Shown piece after piece: positions 4,680 to 36,670 of a DNA stretch of 64,000 nucleotides. Position 1 is the first letter of the stretch; the number at the start of each line of letters is the position of its first letter. Where the stretch lies: assembly GCF_030758775.1 (NCBI RefSeq), contig NZ_CP132384.1, positions 1,364,001 to 1,428,000 of the forward strand, written 5' to 3'. A program made the translations under genes and the position numbers. The notes under the pieces are model-generated. The model was not told the origin of the DNA, ran no database searches, and saw nothing but the letters and a program-made list of their open reading frames with translations. Origin of the DNA: Bifidobacterium asteroides (GTDB lineage Bacteria; Actinomycetota; Actinomycetes; Actinomycetales; Bifidobacteriaceae).

Positions 4680-5516
4680 TCAGCGCCCGCTCAGATACGT
4701 GTTCAAATCCTCGGCGATAAGCCCGTTGGTGGCCACCACGTCGTTGCTGCCCTCCCAGCGCACGTGCCCGCCGTCCCAGCGCCAGAGGGTACCCTTGGCC
4801 TCCCGGACCACGACAGCCGCCGCAGAGACCGCAGGGATGTCCCAGGAGTGCAGGGCCGGTTCGAAGTAGGCATCGTAGCTGCCGTCCGCCACCCGGCACA
4901 GATCCAGCGAGACCGGACCCACGCGCTTGATGTCAGCAGGCTTGCCGGCCATGCGCGAGACGATCTGCAGGACCTTTTCGGACTCGTTGGGGAAGTAGGA
5001 CATGCCGAAGCTGATCACTGACCCGTTCAGGGTGGTCATCGTGGAAGGAATGATCTTCTCCCGCTTGTCGCCCACAATGGTCCGTCGGATCCTGATGGCG
5101 CCCTGGCCCTTGGCGGCCAGATAGGTCAGGCCCAGGACCGGCGCGTGCACGATGCCCAGGACCGGTGAAGCGTGCCCCTTCTCGTCCACGGCGAAGAGGG
5201 AGATGGTCAGCGTCCATTCGGCCATGTTGCGCACATAGTTGACCGGACCGTCGATGTGGCCCAGGCACCAGTAACGGCCGCCTGGACGGCGATTGCCGGC
5301 CTCCTCCTCCCAGAAGCCGTCCATAGGATCCAGGGCAGCGATCTTGGTCCGGCAGTAACGGATCAGGCGCGTGTCAATGCCCGGCGAGAACTGGGTGCCC
5401 TGGCCGATGGCCGAGGTGGAGCGGGGGTCGTGGGGGTTGATCTGGTCCTGGAGGGCATGACGGCCAGCCTCCACAGCAATAGTGGCGGCCTGCATGGCCA
5501 AATCGCGCAATTCCAT
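4680..5516 (-). CDS. Inositol monophosphatase family protein with altered metal-site motif
   Basis: The fold is recognisable from the EEEAG acidic motif, an IDG motif and HSWDIPA near the C-terminus, matching metal-binding motifs of inositol monophosphatase/histidinol phosphatase enzymes. The central motif is unusual: the family has DPIDGT, while this protein reads GHIDGPVNY, so the first Asp ligand and the Thr are missing. Activity is therefore uncertain; members in actinobacteria may act on histidinol phosphate or sugar phosphates. An upstream in-frame ATG at 5534 is possible, but MELRDLAM at 5516 is preceded by an AGAGAAG stretch and matches the usual family start better. It sits inside the pupylation run, between dop and pup, so it is probably co-transcribed with them. 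No link to pupylation is shown by the sequence. Confidence 0.8.
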   Translation of the reverse strand: MELRDLAMQAATIAVEAGRHALQDQINPHDPRSTSAIGQGTQFSPGIDTRLIRYCRTKIAALDPMDGFWEEEAGNRRPGGRYWCLGHIDGPVNYVRNMAEWTLTISLFAVDEKGHASPVLGIVHAPVLGLTYLAAKGQGAIRIRRTIVGDKREKIIPSTMTTLNGSVISFGMSYFPNESEKVLQIVSRMAGKPADIKRVGPVSLDLCRVADGSYDAYFEPALHSWDIPAVSAAAVVVREAKGTLWRWDGGHVRWEGSNDVVATNGLIAEDLNTYLSGR

Positions 5517-5606
5517 ACTTCTCTTCTCTTTCAAACGGGTGGTCGAGACATTGCCGACCGTGATCCACCGGTGGTCGTCCGGTCGGATATCGGACTGTTT
5601 TCTGCG

Positions 5607-7115
5607 CTACCTGCAGTATATGTCGCGGTCATCCCGGCAGGAAGACCTTGTATGACCCAGCGGATCGGACAGATCCACGATCCTGGTTTGAGGCTCCCCC
5701 TCCGGTCCCTGCCCCTCAAGAATGACACGACTCCAGGAGACGGCTTTGACCGCATCAGGGCAGCGGTGCAGCAGCTGGGAACGGCACCAGGCACGAGTCT
5801 GCTCCGGCCCCTGGTCCATGGCCCTGGTGATCTGATCGGGATCAGCTAGTCGCTGGATAGATCCTTGCAGTCGCCATGGCAGGTCACGGCCGGGGTCCAC
5901 CCGTGCCCAGGCCAGATCCAGCGCCGCCAGACGGGGATCCGACCAGTCGGGCATGGCACGGCGGCGGCGCAGTCGCTCCAAGAGCTGCCACTTGAGCAGC
6001 CATTCCAACCTGCCTGCCTGATCGTGCATGGCCAGACGAGCCTCCTCGTCGCCAGAACGCACGGCAGCCAGATCCGCGAGCACCTGGTCCCAGAGGTTCA
6101 GAACCCGGTCGTCGGCACAACCTGGCCGGTCGATACCCCTTCTGGCCTGGCGGGCCGCATCCAGCAATGCCTTTTGGATGGTCAGCGCATCGGCGAACCC
6201 CCCGTTTGCCAAGGCCAGCGGCTTGGTCAGAGCGACATCACGGGAAACCGTGTGCAGGGCTGACACCGGGTCATCCAGCGTCCAGCGATCCAGCAGTTCA
6301 TCGACCTGACTGGTCGAATCATCCTCGGACTCCAAAAGCCCGAGCAGCAGATCGGTGGTCCCCAGCTTGAGAACCAGGGGCGCATCCAGCCGGTTGGCAT
6401 CACCCACGATCACGTGGAGGCGGCGGCTGCCCGGCCCAGCATGGGACTCGTCCCGGGTATTGATGATCGGCCGCCCGAAGGTGGTCTGCAGTCCAATCCG
6501 GCTGGTCAGATAGTCGGCGCGCTGGCTGAGCTGGAAGCCGGCCTCCTCGCTCCTGGGCCCCAGGCCCACTCTGCCCGAGCCGGTGTAGATCTGGCGGGTG
6601 ACGAAATGAATGGTCATCAGGGCCGCCACCCTGGCGAAGGGCACCGCCCTGTCCATCAGATAGTTCTCATGGGATCCCCAGGCGGCGCCCTTGCCGTCCA
6701 CGTTGTTCTTGTAGAGAGCCAGACCTCCAGCCTTTTCCGCGGCCTGGGCCATCATCCGGTCACCCGCACGATCCTGCACCAGCGCATCGAAGGCATCCAC
6801 CGTTTCCGCCGAAGCATACTCGGGGTGGGCATGATCCACGTAAATCCGAGCGCCGTTGGGAGCTGCCACATCGATCAGCCGGGCGCCGGGCGCATCAGTG
6901 AGCATGCTCGGAGCAGCAACGGAACGCGGCAGCCGACCTCCCCTGGCATCATTGACCGGATCCTCGCTCCCGTAGTCCCAGCGGATGTGCGCCAAGGCCG
7001 GCTGAGCAGCGGCCCTTACCAGACGCAGGGCCAGAGTGCGTGGATCAGCGCCGGGATCCTGGGGATCGGCAATGGCATACTCCGTCTCAGTGCCCATGAC
7101 CCGCCCGGCATTCAT
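5607..7115 (-). CDS. dop: Pup deamidase/depupylase Dop
   Basis: Dop converts the C-terminal Gln of Pup to Glu and also removes Pup from tagged proteins. The 502-residue length, GTETEY at 8-13 (E10) and NGARIYVD with D94 match the Dop active site, where the Asp is proposed to be the nucleophile; HPEYASAET, NNVDGKGAAWGSHENYL-type residues and QLSQRADYLTS follow as in the family. It differs from PafA by the longer N-terminal insertion (about 35-80). Its ATG overlaps the arc stop (ATGA, 7112-7115), showing an operon with arc upstream. A small inositol-phosphatase-like gene separates it from pup. The protein appears intact. Confidence 0.94.
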   Translation of the reverse strand: MNAGRVMGTETEYAIADPQDPGADPRTLALRLVRAAAQPALAHIRWDYGSEDPVNDARGGRLPRSVAAPSMLTDAPGARLIDVAAPNGARIYVDHAHPEYASAETVDAFDALVQDRAGDRMMAQAAEKAGGLALYKNNVDGKGAAWGSHENYLMDRAVPFARVAALMTIHFVTRQIYTGSGRVGLGPRSEEAGFQLSQRADYLTSRIGLQTTFGRPIINTRDESHAGPGSRRLHVIVGDANRLDAPLVLKLGTTDLLLGLLESEDDSTSQVDELLDRWTLDDPVSALHTVSRDVALTKPLALANGGFADALTIQKALLDAARQARRGIDRPGCADDRVLNLWDQVLADLAAVRSGDEEARLAMHDQAGRLEWLLKWQLLERLRRRRAMPDWSDPRLAALDLAWARVDPGRDLPWRLQGSIQRLADPDQITRAMDQGPEQTRAWCRSQLLHRCPDAVKAVSWSRVILEGQGPEGEPQTRIVDLSDPLGHTRSSCRDDRDIYCR

Positions 7116-31156: not shown

Positions 31157-31230
31157 GGTGGCTATAGCTCAGTCGGTAGAGCACCTGATTGTGGTTCAGG
31201 AGGTCGCGCGTTCGAGCCGCGTTAGCCACC
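31157..31230 (+). tRNA. tRNA-His (anticodon GTG)
   Basis: The acceptor arms GTGGCTA (31158-31164) and TAGCCAC (31223-31229) pair, with G at 31157 as the extra -1 base that tRNA-His needs. The D arm, an anticodon loop with GTG in CTGATTGTGGTTCAG, and the TTCGAGC T-loop are all present. The CCA end is not encoded; CCCC follows. Confidence 0.95.
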
Positions 31231-31872
31231 CCGCTAGATGTTTGTATTATTTTTAACTTTAGATGCGCCTTGTTTCAATAGGACTTTGAGCTGCTTTTAC
31301 CTGGACCAATCAAATCTCTCTAATTTCTGTAACAATCTCAGGCCTCATTCTGGTTCTCCTTAATTTTGCTTCCATGAGCCGCTTTTGATCTCGCCGAAGC
31401 TGTGAATGCTAAATTGCTGCTTTTTGCCACGTTGCTAGCTTTGGATTTGCTAAATATATGATAGTGCAGTATTTCTGGCATCCTTGATCAGATTCTTATT
31501 TTTCTGACACGACCATATAGTGCCAAGACATGACATTTCGAGATCAAGACCTTTACCGCTCGAGAGACGACATTAGCTACAAACAACTGGTGAATTAGAT
31601 ACCGGGAATTGTCCATTATTTCTGAATCTGAAGATGCGTTTTAAATAATAGTCACGAAATAAGTCGAACACGGTCTTTCGATAGAACCATTGGTTAGCGG
31701 TTATCTGTTATTTGTACAAGGGATTTGATTAATCCTGCCCGTGTCAAGAGAAAAAGTCTTTCCTGATTTTTACTTTTAAATGGTAAATAATTCCGAATTA
31801 CAATTCAATTCGAAAATCAGATATGTGTAAACTGAATATGAGCTAAAATAGTATCTGTAAAAAGGAAATCAA
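31231..31872. other. AT-rich non-coding stretch between tRNA-His and the restriction gene
   Basis: About 640 bases with markedly lower GC than the core and no credible gene. Some short minus-strand frames near 31310-31412 contain an Arg/Lys-rich stretch ending EIVTEIREI but have no clear start or family. The end carries an AAAAAGGAAATC ribosome site for the next gene. Confidence 0.5.
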
Positions 31873-33060
31873 ATGATGAAACACAAAGCGGCGTATACAA
31901 TGTCATTTACTTCTTCTAATGCTGGTGGGGTTCGGTGGTTTGATCAAAAGGTAACATATGATAATTTGGCCCAAATAGCAGACGCCGCACACTACACTGC
32001 ACCTACTCATACTGTTTTCTCTCGGTTCGATATACAAAAGTGCCTCTCGCTAAACAGTGCTCTTACCAGGCAGTATGGCAAACCGCCTTTGAGTGACAAA
32101 AAAGCAAACGATGAGTATGACAAATTCATTGCCCAGAACCTAAATGTCCTAGCTTACTCAGGCGTTTTGAGTTCTTCACTGCAAGATAGGAAAAGAATAT
32201 ACTCGGTACAAAATTCTGGAGTGCTTCAACGCATAGCCGGTGATGAAAATCAATGTAGAGTTTTTCTAATTCAATACATCGAGTGGGTGCTAAAAAAATT
32301 TAATTGGTGGCAATATATCACGACATATGCAGACAGTCAGCATAAACAAGAAGACATGGATAACTTGAAAAAGCAATTCACGAACCTCTTAATAAATACC
32401 ATGTCATTAGGCAGCAAAGGTAGCGCACATCCCGAAGTTGAGGCAGGACGAATTTTTCCAAAGGTAATTAATCTAACAGCTTATGCATTACTGATTCCAG
32501 GAATCAAGAGAGGTCGTGTAATGGATTGTCCACCAACAAACATAGACCTCATCTATAACAAACCAAATTGGAGAGATATTGCTTCGAAGAAACCCAAACA
32601 AATGACTCGCCAAGAGTATATTCAACAATCAAAGAGCGGCGCAGAATATGAATTGCACAGGCATCTCACAGACGCTGTAATGCTTAAAGTCAAGACATAC
32701 CAGAGACAAATTTCGGAAATTCCTGATTCTTCCTTGGGGAAAGCTACGCATATCCACCACATTTTCCCAGTCCATTCTTACCCTACTTTAGCTGAAATAC
32801 CCGAAAATATGATTGCACTCACACCTGGCCAGCATCTTGGGCAAGCTCATCCTGATGGAAATACACATAAGATTGATTTATCCTTTCAGCGTGTTTGCTT
32901 ATCACAAAAACTGGAAACCATCAAAAAGAGTGTTCTTGAAAGAGATGGAATGTACACTTATAGTGGTTTCGTAAAGGTCCTTGAAGCTGGTTGGGGTCTA
33001 CAAGATCTTAAGCCGACGTATAAGTCTCTGCGAGACGCAATAATCAATCATGTGGACTAA
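31873..33060 (+). CDS. Putative HNH-type type II restriction endonuclease
   Basis: This AT-rich 395-residue gene has no strong match that can be named with certainty, but its C-terminal part reads ATHIHHIFPVHSYP (H293, H295, H296), then N312 and LTPGQHLGQAHP (H321, H326). That spacing fits an HNH (beta-beta-alpha metal) nuclease. The N-terminal about 280 residues would be for DNA recognition. It ends 2 bases before the stop of the convergent methyltransferase gene, the usual pairing of a restriction enzyme with its methylase. HNH nucleases occur in the Alw26I/Eco31I/Esp3I group of type IIS enzymes, and the partner methylase type fits them, but this protein is shorter than Eco31I, so the placement is inference. 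The start may be 31873 or 31876. Confidence 0.65.
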   Translation: MMKHKAAYTMSFTSSNAGGVRWFDQKVTYDNLAQIADAAHYTAPTHTVFSRFDIQKCLSLNSALTRQYGKPPLSDKKANDEYDKFIAQNLNVLAYSGVLSSSLQDRKRIYSVQNSGVLQRIAGDENQCRVFLIQYIEWVLKKFNWWQYITTYADSQHKQEDMDNLKKQFTNLLINTMSLGSKGSAHPEVEAGRIFPKVINLTAYALLIPGIKRGRVMDCPPTNIDLIYNKPNWRDIASKKPKQMTRQEYIQQSKSGAEYELHRHLTDAVMLKVKTYQRQISEIPDSSLGKATHIHHIFPVHSYPTLAEIPENMIALTPGQHLGQAHPDGNTHKIDLSFQRVCLSQKLETIKKSVLERDGMYTYSGFVKVLEAGWGLQDLKPTYKSLRDAIINHVD

Positions 33061-33061
33061 A

Positions 33062-35521
33062 TTAGTGTATTTTTTCCGGGTTTTTGGGCACTCCCCACCA
33101 ATAAACTAAACAAGAGTCTATATTGATAGATCTCGTAGAATAATTACAAGCTATCCTATAAAAAGATTGGAATTGCTTGCTGTCTGCGAATGATAAGAAA
33201 GTTCGAGAAGACTCGGGGTTCAAATCTCCATACAGGACCGCACAACTCCCATCAGGGACTGCACTTTTGCCACTTTCGAACTCTATAACCCGAGGGTTAT
33301 ACGACAGATTAGGAGCCAAGAATTTGCTGTTTCCAGGTAATCTTGCTATAGATGACGAAACACTGTCTGCAGTAGATTTCGAAACTTTGTAGTCTCTTGA
33401 ATCGTGCTCTAAGTGACCGTTCATTCCGATGTTTCTCCCGCGTAGTACTCTTATCCCGCTAGATACAGCAAGTCGTCGGCTAATCTTCCTATCTCTCCAT
33501 GCTCTAAATACACCTAACTTTAATAACTGAACAGTTTTGTCAAATTGGCTATTCCGATAAATGATCCATGTTGGGAATCGGCAATCTAGATAATATTCAG
33601 ATGGTCCTGCCGCCATACACTCTTGCGGCCATGATTTAATTTTTAAGAGATTTTTCCCTTTTCTATAATCGCTTACCACTTCTATGACTAAACCTATTGT
33701 TTCAATTTTAGCATCATGAAATGTGAATTCACCGAAATCTAATATATGTCGTACATCAGTCATAGATGCAATTGTGTTACGTATATCTTGGTAATAGGCT
33801 GCGTGTAAAAATGCTTTGGGTAATACGAAAGCTACTCTCTCGGCTAACGAGACCGCTTTCCTTAAGAACCTAACAGACAGCTCCGAGTCTTTTCCCCAAG
33901 CACTGTTCTTATCCAACTTCCTGCGCCCAAAAGGAGGATTCCCAATTATTAAATCGAAATCATGAATCATCTCGCTGCAATCTTTGAGAAAATCTTTTCG
34001 ACATATCGTCAAATTAATAAAGTTATTTGAGGTTTGGAATCGTTTTTTCACTTGTTTTATGACTTCTACATCGATATCTAAGCAATCCAAATCTATCGGG
34101 TAAAACTCAGCAAACTGATTCAGTATCTGAATAAACACGCCGCTTCCGCAAGAAGGCTCCAGAATCTTAATCGCTTTATTTCGATTCTCCTTATATTCTG
34201 CTAACGATCGCTTAACGACTGAAAAGGCGATCAAGGGTTCTGTATAATAAGCAGACAAACTTTTTTTGCGCAATTCTGAAACTTCGACGTAAGCACATTT
34301 TTGTGCTTCACTTGCCCAGTTAGAAACATGTGCGCGTCTAGGTCGTTGTGACGAAAACCTGAGAAATGGTGTAAGAGCTTTACTGATGTGGCGTGCTATC
34401 GATTGCGTCACAGGCACTGGTATGGCTTCGCCGAGACACTGTCTAATATTTAATGCGTGATTTTTTAATTCGCTCATACAAGCGCATGAACCTGCATCCG
34501 TCTGCGAATCGAACCAATGATAATCATCACGAACGCCCATCATTCTCATTAATTCTCGGATACTGAAAACCCGATCATCTTCTGGGTGAATCGTATTCTG
34601 GCTTGCCAGGATATCATTCCGCGTATGCACGCACGGAGCCACAGCATCCCAAGGAACACGTCTATACTTGTCACCATTTTTCTGCACATTCTGAATAACT
34701 TTGCCATTAACTACTCTATGTGGCCTCTTAAGTGGGTCCTTATTTTCAAAAGCAGAATGTCCTTCTTTTAAATCATGAATCCATGACCGCATCTCTTTGT
34801 TATACGGTCTGAAAGAATGTAGCACATCCCCCTCTGAGCTTTGCCCCATTTCCGTCAGTCGGGGAAGATCTCCGATTAGATCACGCAGCGTAGGCGCACT
34901 TTTCTTACTCGGGAACAAATCCAAAGGAGTTACCCATGTGATATCGTTGCGCACTCCAATGGTAAGAGATCGGGTACGGCTTGACGGAGAACCATAGTTG
35001 CTCAGCTGCAACACATGCGAATAAAATTCATAAGTAGCACCCAAGTCTGATTCGATTTCATCCTTAATCGGACGATTAATTCCATCTTGGCCAGTACAAA
35101 TAGTCTTCATAAACGCCGGAACATTTTCAAATATGAAAACTAGAGGCTTAACCTTTTGAATAAGTTCTATCGACCGTACCACAAGCGAATTTCTTTTCAG
35201 CTCATCGCCCTTTTTATGGTTCGCAACAGACATCCCCTGACATGGAGGAGTAGCAATTACAGCGGTAATAGGCTGCTGTTTCTCTTCCATATAGTTCTCT
35301 GCGAGAGATAACACAGTTTCGAATGGACCTGGTAACAGTAAATCGCCACATATCAATCTATTGTCATCTGCAATGTGATTGATTCTTTGTATTTCGATTC
35401 GTTTAGATAACAATTCAGCTGAAGCTATGCAGAAGAAATGCTCATCATGAAAGCCAATGTCGCCAATACCTCCCGAGCTGAATAGGCTAATATATGAGTT
35501 TTCCGCTTTAACTGAATTCAT
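33062..35521 (-). CDS. Fused C5-cytosine / N6-adenine DNA methyltransferase
   Basis: Two methyltransferase domains lie in one 819-residue protein. N-terminal: motif I SLFSSGGIGDIGF, motif IV TPPCQGMS (PCQ at 93-95, Cys94), motif VI FENVP (ENV at 132-134), motif VIII SSRTRSLTIGV and a motif X GEAIPVPVTQSIARHI near 364. C-terminal: ILEPSCGSGVFI (455-461 core) and NPPFG (528-532), the SAM and catalytic motifs of a gamma-type N6-adenine enzyme, preceded by YYTEP. Such a fusion would modify a cytosine in one strand and an adenine in the other of an asymmetric site. The last about 200 residues may be a recognition domain. Its GC content is low, unlike the core. No ribosome site is visible before the ATG, so it may be leaderless. 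It converges with the putative HNH nuclease. Confidence 0.88.
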   Translation of the reverse strand: MNSVKAENSYISLFSSGGIGDIGFHDEHFFCIASAELLSKRIEIQRINHIADDNRLICGDLLLPGPFETVLSLAENYMEEKQQPITAVIATPPCQGMSVANHKKGDELKRNSLVVRSIELIQKVKPLVFIFENVPAFMKTICTGQDGINRPIKDEIESDLGATYEFYSHVLQLSNYGSPSSRTRSLTIGVRNDITWVTPLDLFPSKKSAPTLRDLIGDLPRLTEMGQSSEGDVLHSFRPYNKEMRSWIHDLKEGHSAFENKDPLKRPHRVVNGKVIQNVQKNGDKYRRVPWDAVAPCVHTRNDILASQNTIHPEDDRVFSIRELMRMMGVRDDYHWFDSQTDAGSCACMSELKNHALNIRQCLGEAIPVPVTQSIARHISKALTPFLRFSSQRPRRAHVSNWASEAQKCAYVEVSELRKKSLSAYYTEPLIAFSVVKRSLAEYKENRNKAIKILEPSCGSGVFIQILNQFAEFYPIDLDCLDIDVEVIKQVKKRFQTSNNFINLTICRKDFLKDCSEMIHDFDLIIGNPPFGRRKLDKNSAWGKDSELSVRFLRKAVSLAERVAFVLPKAFLHAAYYQDIRNTIASMTDVRHILDFGEFTFHDAKIETIGLVIEVVSDYRKGKNLLKIKSWPQECMAAGPSEYYLDCRFPTWIIYRNSQFDKTVQLLKLGVFRAWRDRKISRRLAVSSGIRVLRGRNIGMNGHLEHDSRDYKVSKSTADSVSSSIARLPGNSKFLAPNLSYNPRVIEFESGKSAVPDGSCAVLYGDLNPESSRTFLSFADSKQFQSFYRIACNYSTRSINIDSCLVYWWGVPKNPEKIH

Positions 35522-35672
35522 AGGTCAACAATACAGCATAAGAAGGAAATTTACATCAGCGTTTTGCTTTTTGTCCTTCATCTCTTTATTCACTCACACT
35601 ATGTGAAATTATGCCTTTCCACGGCATTTTGGAGCAGGAGTTTACATGAATTAGAGTCGCCGTCGTTCGAGG

Positions 35673-35704
35673 AAACCACTTAGGTTATTTAAACAAAGTG
35701 GTTT
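35673..35704. terminator. Weak hairpin in front of the LysR gene
   Basis: AAACCACT (35673-35680) and AGTGGTTT (35697-35704) form an 8-base stem with T-rich sequence after it. It may end a transcript from the cassette or mark the boundary; support is limited. Confidence 0.35.
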
Positions 35705-35749
35705 TATACTACGTTTATCATCATATCAAATTGCATAGTTGAATACAGA

Positions 35750-36670
35750 ATGTATTTACGGGTGCTGAGGTATTTCCTGGCCATCGTTGAAGAGGGAAGC
35801 ATCACTGGGGCAGCTGAGTACCTGAACATATCCCAGCCATCCCTGTCCAGGCAGATAAAAGATCTGGAAGAGCATCTAGAGCACAAACTCTTTGACCGCG
35901 GAAGCCGCACAATCACGCTGACCCCGGCCGGGGAACTGTTGCGCGACCGGGCACGCGAGATCGTGCTCATGGCCGACCGTGCCGAGGCCGAGCTCACAAG
36001 CATGGACAAGCCAATCAACGGCAACGTCTACATCGGGGCAGGGGAAACAGAAGCCGTGCGCTTCCTGGCCAGGGCCGCAGAGTGCATGCTGCAGCAGTAT
36101 CCTCAGGTAAAGTTCCACATTTTCAGCGGCAATGGTCAGGCCGTAACAGATCAATTAGAATCAGGACTTCTGGATTTTGGCCTGCTTTTTGAGCCCTCGG
36201 ACAACACCAAATACTCCTATATCAGCTTGCCTACAGCCGACAGATGGGGATTGCTCATACGCAAGGACTCCACGTTGGCCAGCCATGATGGCATCCGCCA
36301 GGAAGATCTTGAACAGATACCCCTCCTGCTCTCACGGCAGGTCAGGTTCGACAGAGAATTCAGCGGATGGAGTTCCTTCTCAGAGCACGAACTGCATGTT
36401 GTAGGAACCTACAATCTGCTCTTCAACGTGTCACTATTCGTCAGCGAAGGATGTGGTTACGCGCTCTGCCTGGACCGCATCATCAATCTGACCGAGGGCT
36501 CAAATCTGGTCTTCAAACCTCTGGTGCCTGAATTTAGAACAAGAGTGAACCTGGTTTGGAAGAGCAATAGGCATTTTTCATCGGCGGCGAGTCAGTATCT
36601 GGAAATATTACGAAGACAGATTGGAACAGAAAACGCCTGCAAATCTACAGAAGCCAGGAAAACGCTATGA
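35750..36670 (+). CDS. LysR family transcriptional regulator
   Basis: The winged-helix domain (about 1-60) reads YFLAIVEEGSITGAAEYLN with ISQPSLSRQIKDLEEHL, the LysR signature, followed by a periplasmic-binding-like effector domain. Length 306. The ligand is unknown. It stands between the restriction-modification cassette and a group of small redox genes that it may control, of which the nearest, a VOC protein, is convergent. It is intact. Confidence 0.88.
   Translation: MYLRVLRYFLAIVEEGSITGAAEYLNISQPSLSRQIKDLEEHLEHKLFDRGSRTITLTPAGELLRDRAREIVLMADRAEAELTSMDKPINGNVYIGAGETEAVRFLARAAECMLQQYPQVKFHIFSGNGQAVTDQLESGLLDFGLLFEPSDNTKYSYISLPTADRWGLLIRKDSTLASHDGIRQEDLEQIPLLLSRQVRFDREFSGWSSFSEHELHVVGTYNLLFNVSLFVSEGCGYALCLDRIINLTEGSNLVFKPLVPEFRTRVNLVWKSNRHFSSAASQYLEILRRQIGTENACKSTEARKTL

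Follow-up and report, generated by a model that had tools for sequence, protein, structure and literature searches.

A 64,000-nucleotide stretch of the Bifidobacterium asteroides contig NZ_CP132384.1 (positions 1,364,001 to 1,428,000, hereafter the window) carries a restriction-modification gene pair, composed of a nuclease gene (R) and a fused methylase gene (M), which very likely forms a type IIS system of the HpyAV/Hin4II family, with regard to family and mechanism together. The pair belongs to a known kind of system and is a new, unusually divergent member of this family. It is probably complete and functional, its activity, cut distance, and defence role being predicted from the sequence. 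The features of the pair, with lengths in amino acids (aa), are:

31873..33060, + strand: R, predicted HpyAV/Hin4II-family HNH type IIS restriction endonuclease, 395 aa, with a winged-helix-like N-terminal part (about residues 1-130) and an HNH core (about residues 286-335, including H295, H296, N312, and H321)
32755..32835, + strand: HNH catalytic segment of R, codons H295 to H321, HH-x15-N-x8-H with the HpyAV spacing
33062..35521, - strand: M, fused DNA methyltransferase, 819 aa, with a C5-cytosine part (about residues 9-385) and an N6-adenine (N6A) part (about residues 421-813)
34592..34927, - strand: C5 target-recognition zone of M, residues 199-310, with boundaries set by us

The R and M gene pair

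Both open reading frames (ORFs) are intact and lie tail to tail, with a single base (33061) between their stop codons, exactly as the first-pass annotation of this stretch had described. When the R/M stretch was shuffled 200 times (mononucleotide shuffles), stop-free runs reached 209 codons at most, so these ORFs are not due to chance. This stretch has a single match in the 2.08-Mb genome, and a genome-wide Pfam search for C5 methylases found one gene besides M. A match to phosphoketolase (XFP_N), together with the GC content, suggests a bifidobacterium. Scans for promoters and terminators gave 11 and 4 sites, compared to 11.2 and 3.6 in shuffles, which is no excess beyond noise.

The C5 (PCQ, ENV) and N6 (NPPF) motifs announced for the 819-residue protein are indeed found in its translation, as PPCQ at 92-95, ENV at 132-134, and NPPF at 528-531. 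M matches the Pfam families DNA_methylase (PF00145, 9.8e-35, residues 10-381) and Eco57I N6A methylase (PF07669, 2.9e-11, residues 488-598), and the PADLOC model PDLC03277 covers residues 9-811 of 819 (2.4e-167), while its two halves are matched separately by PDLC03370 and PDLC03382. The structure model of M has a predicted local distance difference test score (pLDDT) of 83.3, with the longest low-confidence stretch (394-420) located between the two methylase domains, and it matches solved N6A enzymes (CamA, M.BseCI) as well as C5 enzymes (M.HaeIII, DNMT1).

R has no match in Pfam or NCBIfam (the latter at E up to 1), and a sequence search of the PDB was also empty. The PADLOC restriction endonuclease model REase_II PDLC03488 matches residues 17-373 of 395 (2.8e-60). 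The His/Asn/His arrangement noticed in the first-pass annotation corresponds to HH-x15-N-x8-H at residues 295-321, a pattern which occurs in the nucleases of all 87 relatives described below (in L049, within a piece of a broken frame) and in only 18 of 20,000 shuffles of R. In the confident structure model of R, this site is placed in a strand-strand-helix element (strands 293-296 and 313-316, helix 318-325). Together, VIA-align, the motif, and the modelled secondary structure point to an HNH (beta-beta-alpha-metal) fold at the C-terminus of R.

Assignment to the HpyAV/Hin4II family

M is matched best by three PADLOC models, PDLC03277, PDLC03370, and PDLC03382, which are 823, 387, and 445 positions long, and the published lengths of M.HpyAV, M1.Hin4II, and M2.Hin4II are 823, 387, and 445 (PMC2816704). 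A pair from Helicobacter bilis scores 583 bits with the R model PDLC03488 and 1264 bits with the M model. We link R and M to HpyAV/Hin4II because of this equality of lengths and of the Helicobacter bilis scores. Among 14 genomes of the genus of this Helicobacter relative, only that relative matched.

HpyAV, published in 2010, recognizes CCTTC, cuts at 6/5, and comprises a fused C5 and N6A methylase and an HNH nuclease, of which residues H294, H295, N311, and H320 were tested by mutation (PMC2816704). H295, H296, N312, and H321 of R show the identical spacing. The methylome reported in 2013 for M.HpyAV (hp0054) gives 5-methylcytosine at 1198 of 1304 CCTTC sites and N6-methyladenine on the opposite strand at 1252 of 1304 (PMC3936762). 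C5 and N6A methylases matched near full length, a companion nuclease matched over most of its length, and the HNH residues are thus all found in the pair.

At a short asymmetric site, the C5 half of M would mark a cytosine in one strand, and an adenine in the opposite strand would be marked by the N6A half, such that every daughter duplex would retain a mark after replication. R would read the same site when unmarked, cut on one side of it at a distance of a few bases, using its single HNH site, and destroy unmarked incoming DNA, for example that of a phage or a plasmid. The combination of fused methylase and HNH nuclease is already established, not new. The divergent pair would be well suited for testing the stability of the CCTTC specificity and, on the practical side, predicts the mark that a laboratory plasmid would need for survival in this host.

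Relatives of the pair

A scan of a genome contig collection with an R profile found 172 relatives, of which the best 80 were kept; together with 4 viral-contig and 3 plasmid loci, they make 87 loci. This collection scan requires exact short peptides and may have missed closer relatives. A single-sequence scan of the same collection with M found no relative, and 52 viral-contig loci were found with an M profile. One of the relatives (L018) comes from a metagenome-assembled genome (MAG) of Coriobacteriia, and two records of a phage collection hold an R relative; no DNA match was found in E. coli genomes.

The methylase is one ORF spanning both activities in 63 of the 87 loci, split or partial in 22, and absent from the DNA covered in 2. 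As M.HpyAV is also fused, we consider the fused methylase the usual form in the HpyAV family. The nuclease and methylase genes lie on the same strand in 82 loci and on opposite strands in 3 (L003, L074, and L085), so a convergent layout is rare, not unique; PMC2816704 likewise mentions two systems with a deviating gene order.

Some loci show other architectures. In a Bacteroidales MAG (JAOZVK010000008.1, L022:5989-8748), a 919-aa ORF carries a MACPF/perforin domain (PF01823, 3.7e-12, residues 455-622) after an HpyAV-type HNH nuclease. This fusion, seen in this one MAG only, adjoins a fused methylase and would be unusual; no title among the literature matches listed reports a nuclease-perforin fusion. 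A 1247-aa ORF in a Lachnospiraceae MAG (L077:3418-7161) unites C5 methylase, N6A methylase, and HNH nuclease, and a viral contig (L094:3151-4371 and 5016-6260) has two same-strand HpyAV-type nuclease ORFs beside a single fused methylase.

Genomic location and probable acquisition

R and M are located in an insert of about 4.5 kb, with a low content of guanine and cytosine (GC), between a transfer RNA (tRNA) gene and a LysR-type gene:

31158..31232, + strand: tRNA-His(GTG), detected with ARAGORN, forming the left edge of the variable slot and lying where synteny breaks in 6 of 7 fetched sister regions
31233..35749, no strand: low-GC insert, from tRNA-His to the LysR-type gene that starts at 35750 (right border), GC 0.401 compared to 0.596 for the window

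Synteny with the sister regions breaks at the 3' end of tRNA-His, followed by different DNA, in 6 of the 7 fetched regions, the seventh (L114) not including the left flank, and in 3 of the 7 it is restored where the LysR-type gene starts. R is absent from all 98 other genomes searched, 26 of which belong to the same genus, and from all 295 others sampled in the phylum; for M, 19 of the same 98 genomes gave methylase matches, all of them partial. Among the matches listed in the open-licence PubMed Central literature, no report of the HpyAV/Hin4II family in bifidobacteria was found, and other restriction-modification systems are named for Bifidobacterium animalis (PMC3990576).

In one sister species (G013, L109:11280-14407), the same tRNA-His/LysR slot holds a C5 methylase and a HATPase-type restriction endonuclease (PDLC03419, 5.4e-258). 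This is a different restriction-modification system, so the locus is an exchange slot with such cargo in at least two species. Five ORFs tested from the slots of L110, L112, L113, and L115 matched no PADLOC model at 1e-5. We conclude that R and M were probably acquired from elsewhere by horizontal transfer into this tRNA-His-bordered slot. An integrase mechanism is unsupported, since no attachment-site-like repeat of the tRNA-His 3' end occurs downstream of R and M in the window. In another sister species (L111:9871-9914), a 44-base repeat with 89% identity to the 3' end of tRNA-His lies about 2.1 kb downstream of this tRNA and resembles an attachment-site remnant.

Target site and alternative explanations

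The best identity of R is 34% in the alignment with 86 relatives and 36% in the best tblastn segment, and in the other rows the nearest-neighbour identity does not fall below 44% (R) and 53% (M). The M branch (1.85, median 0.25) is the longest in a tree of 78 rows made with a simpler model, in which the composition of M was flagged as odd. The losses are unevenly distributed: the C5 target-recognition zone keeps 37 of 37 conserved columns, compared to 139 of 176 in the rest of M (Fisher p 0.0006, only indicative, the boundaries of the zone having been chosen after viewing the list of conserved columns). We therefore favour CCTTC/GAAGG as the target site, a prediction from this fully conserved zone in which we have reasonable, not strong, confidence.

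Several observations weigh against our assignment of family and site. PADLOC labels its models only 'type II', and the tie to HpyAV comes from model lengths and the Helicobacter bilis scores. With Foldseek alone, R had no structural match at E 0.001. The family-conserved columns are kept at 64 of 83 positions in R (19 lost) and 176 of 213 in M (37 lost), a smaller fraction than in any other row for R as well as for M, and the R branch in a quick tree of 87 rows is 3.64 long, compared to a median of 0.27 and 1.36 for the next longest. Given these many lost columns and the long R branch, the specificity may differ from CCTTC. This pentamer is seen 205 times in the 64-kb window, compared to an expectation of 237, and ranks 70th from the bottom among 512 pentamers, which is no clear avoidance and is not informative.

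We know of no members of the HpyAV family with proven sites beyond HpyAV and Hin4II, and for this reason a system of the same family and mechanism may read a different site, for instance one that departs from CCTTC by a single base, through divergence of R and of the N6A half. This drift, which we consider possible but doubtful, would fit the longest branch in both trees and the loss of conserved columns before residue 286 of R (40 of 59 kept) and in the C-terminal N6A half of M (33 of 41 kept); two distant relatives are also mentioned as perhaps reading CCTTC or a site with one base different (PMC2816704). Nevertheless, the intact C5 zone argues against it, and R and both halves of M would have had to drift jointly, as all must read one site. 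In a more far-reaching form, which seems rather unlikely, the pair would be the only sampled member of a deep, separate HpyAV-family lineage in which the nuclease and the adenine half have shifted to another asymmetric site, creating a new type IIS specificity. R is the most divergent row, with 19 conserved positions changed, all before residue 286, which might also indicate a decaying system where M protects and R is inactive. We find this improbable, given that the 395-codon ORF has no stop or frameshift, all catalytic columns are kept, none of the 24 conserved columns from residue 286 onwards is lost, and the R model is confident.

Comparison with known systems

The first-pass annotation had likened the pair to the Alw26I/Eco31I/Esp3I group. 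This type IIS group likewise marks C and A on opposite strands, and NCBIfam holds a nuclease model for it; the families listed for the 73 members of A3, 25 in number, include no model of this group. Eco31I is also named as an HNH nuclease (PMC2816704), and M shows a weak match to the Alw26I-family adenine-methylase model TIGR02987. Nevertheless, this match reaches 53.4 bits, far under the curated cut-off of 353.5, R lacks any NCBIfam match, and HpyAV-type PADLOC models match R and M nearly full length. The pair almost certainly does not belong to this group: the restriction-modification system with fused C5/N6A methylase, HNH nuclease, and asymmetric-site layout proposed at first holds, whereas the kinship does not.

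MhoVII of Mycoplasma hominis is a type II system that also has two methylases fused in one enzyme, but the marks reported for it are N6-methyladenine at GATG/CATC and its methylases are placed in the YhdJ and MTaseD12 branches (PMC12898733); we considered it as a possible precedent and set it aside. The closest likeness is found in HpyAV of Helicobacter pylori 26695 (hp0053/hp0054), with a fused C5 and N6A methylase of about 820 aa and an HNH nuclease of about 400 aa, where M precedes R in the same direction, whereas the genes converge here (PMC2816704). Hin4II of Haemophilus influenzae RFL4, an isoschizomer of HpyAV, has the same methylase types and nuclease family, but its methylases are encoded by separate genes (387 and 445 aa; PMC2816704), in place of the single fused gene found here.
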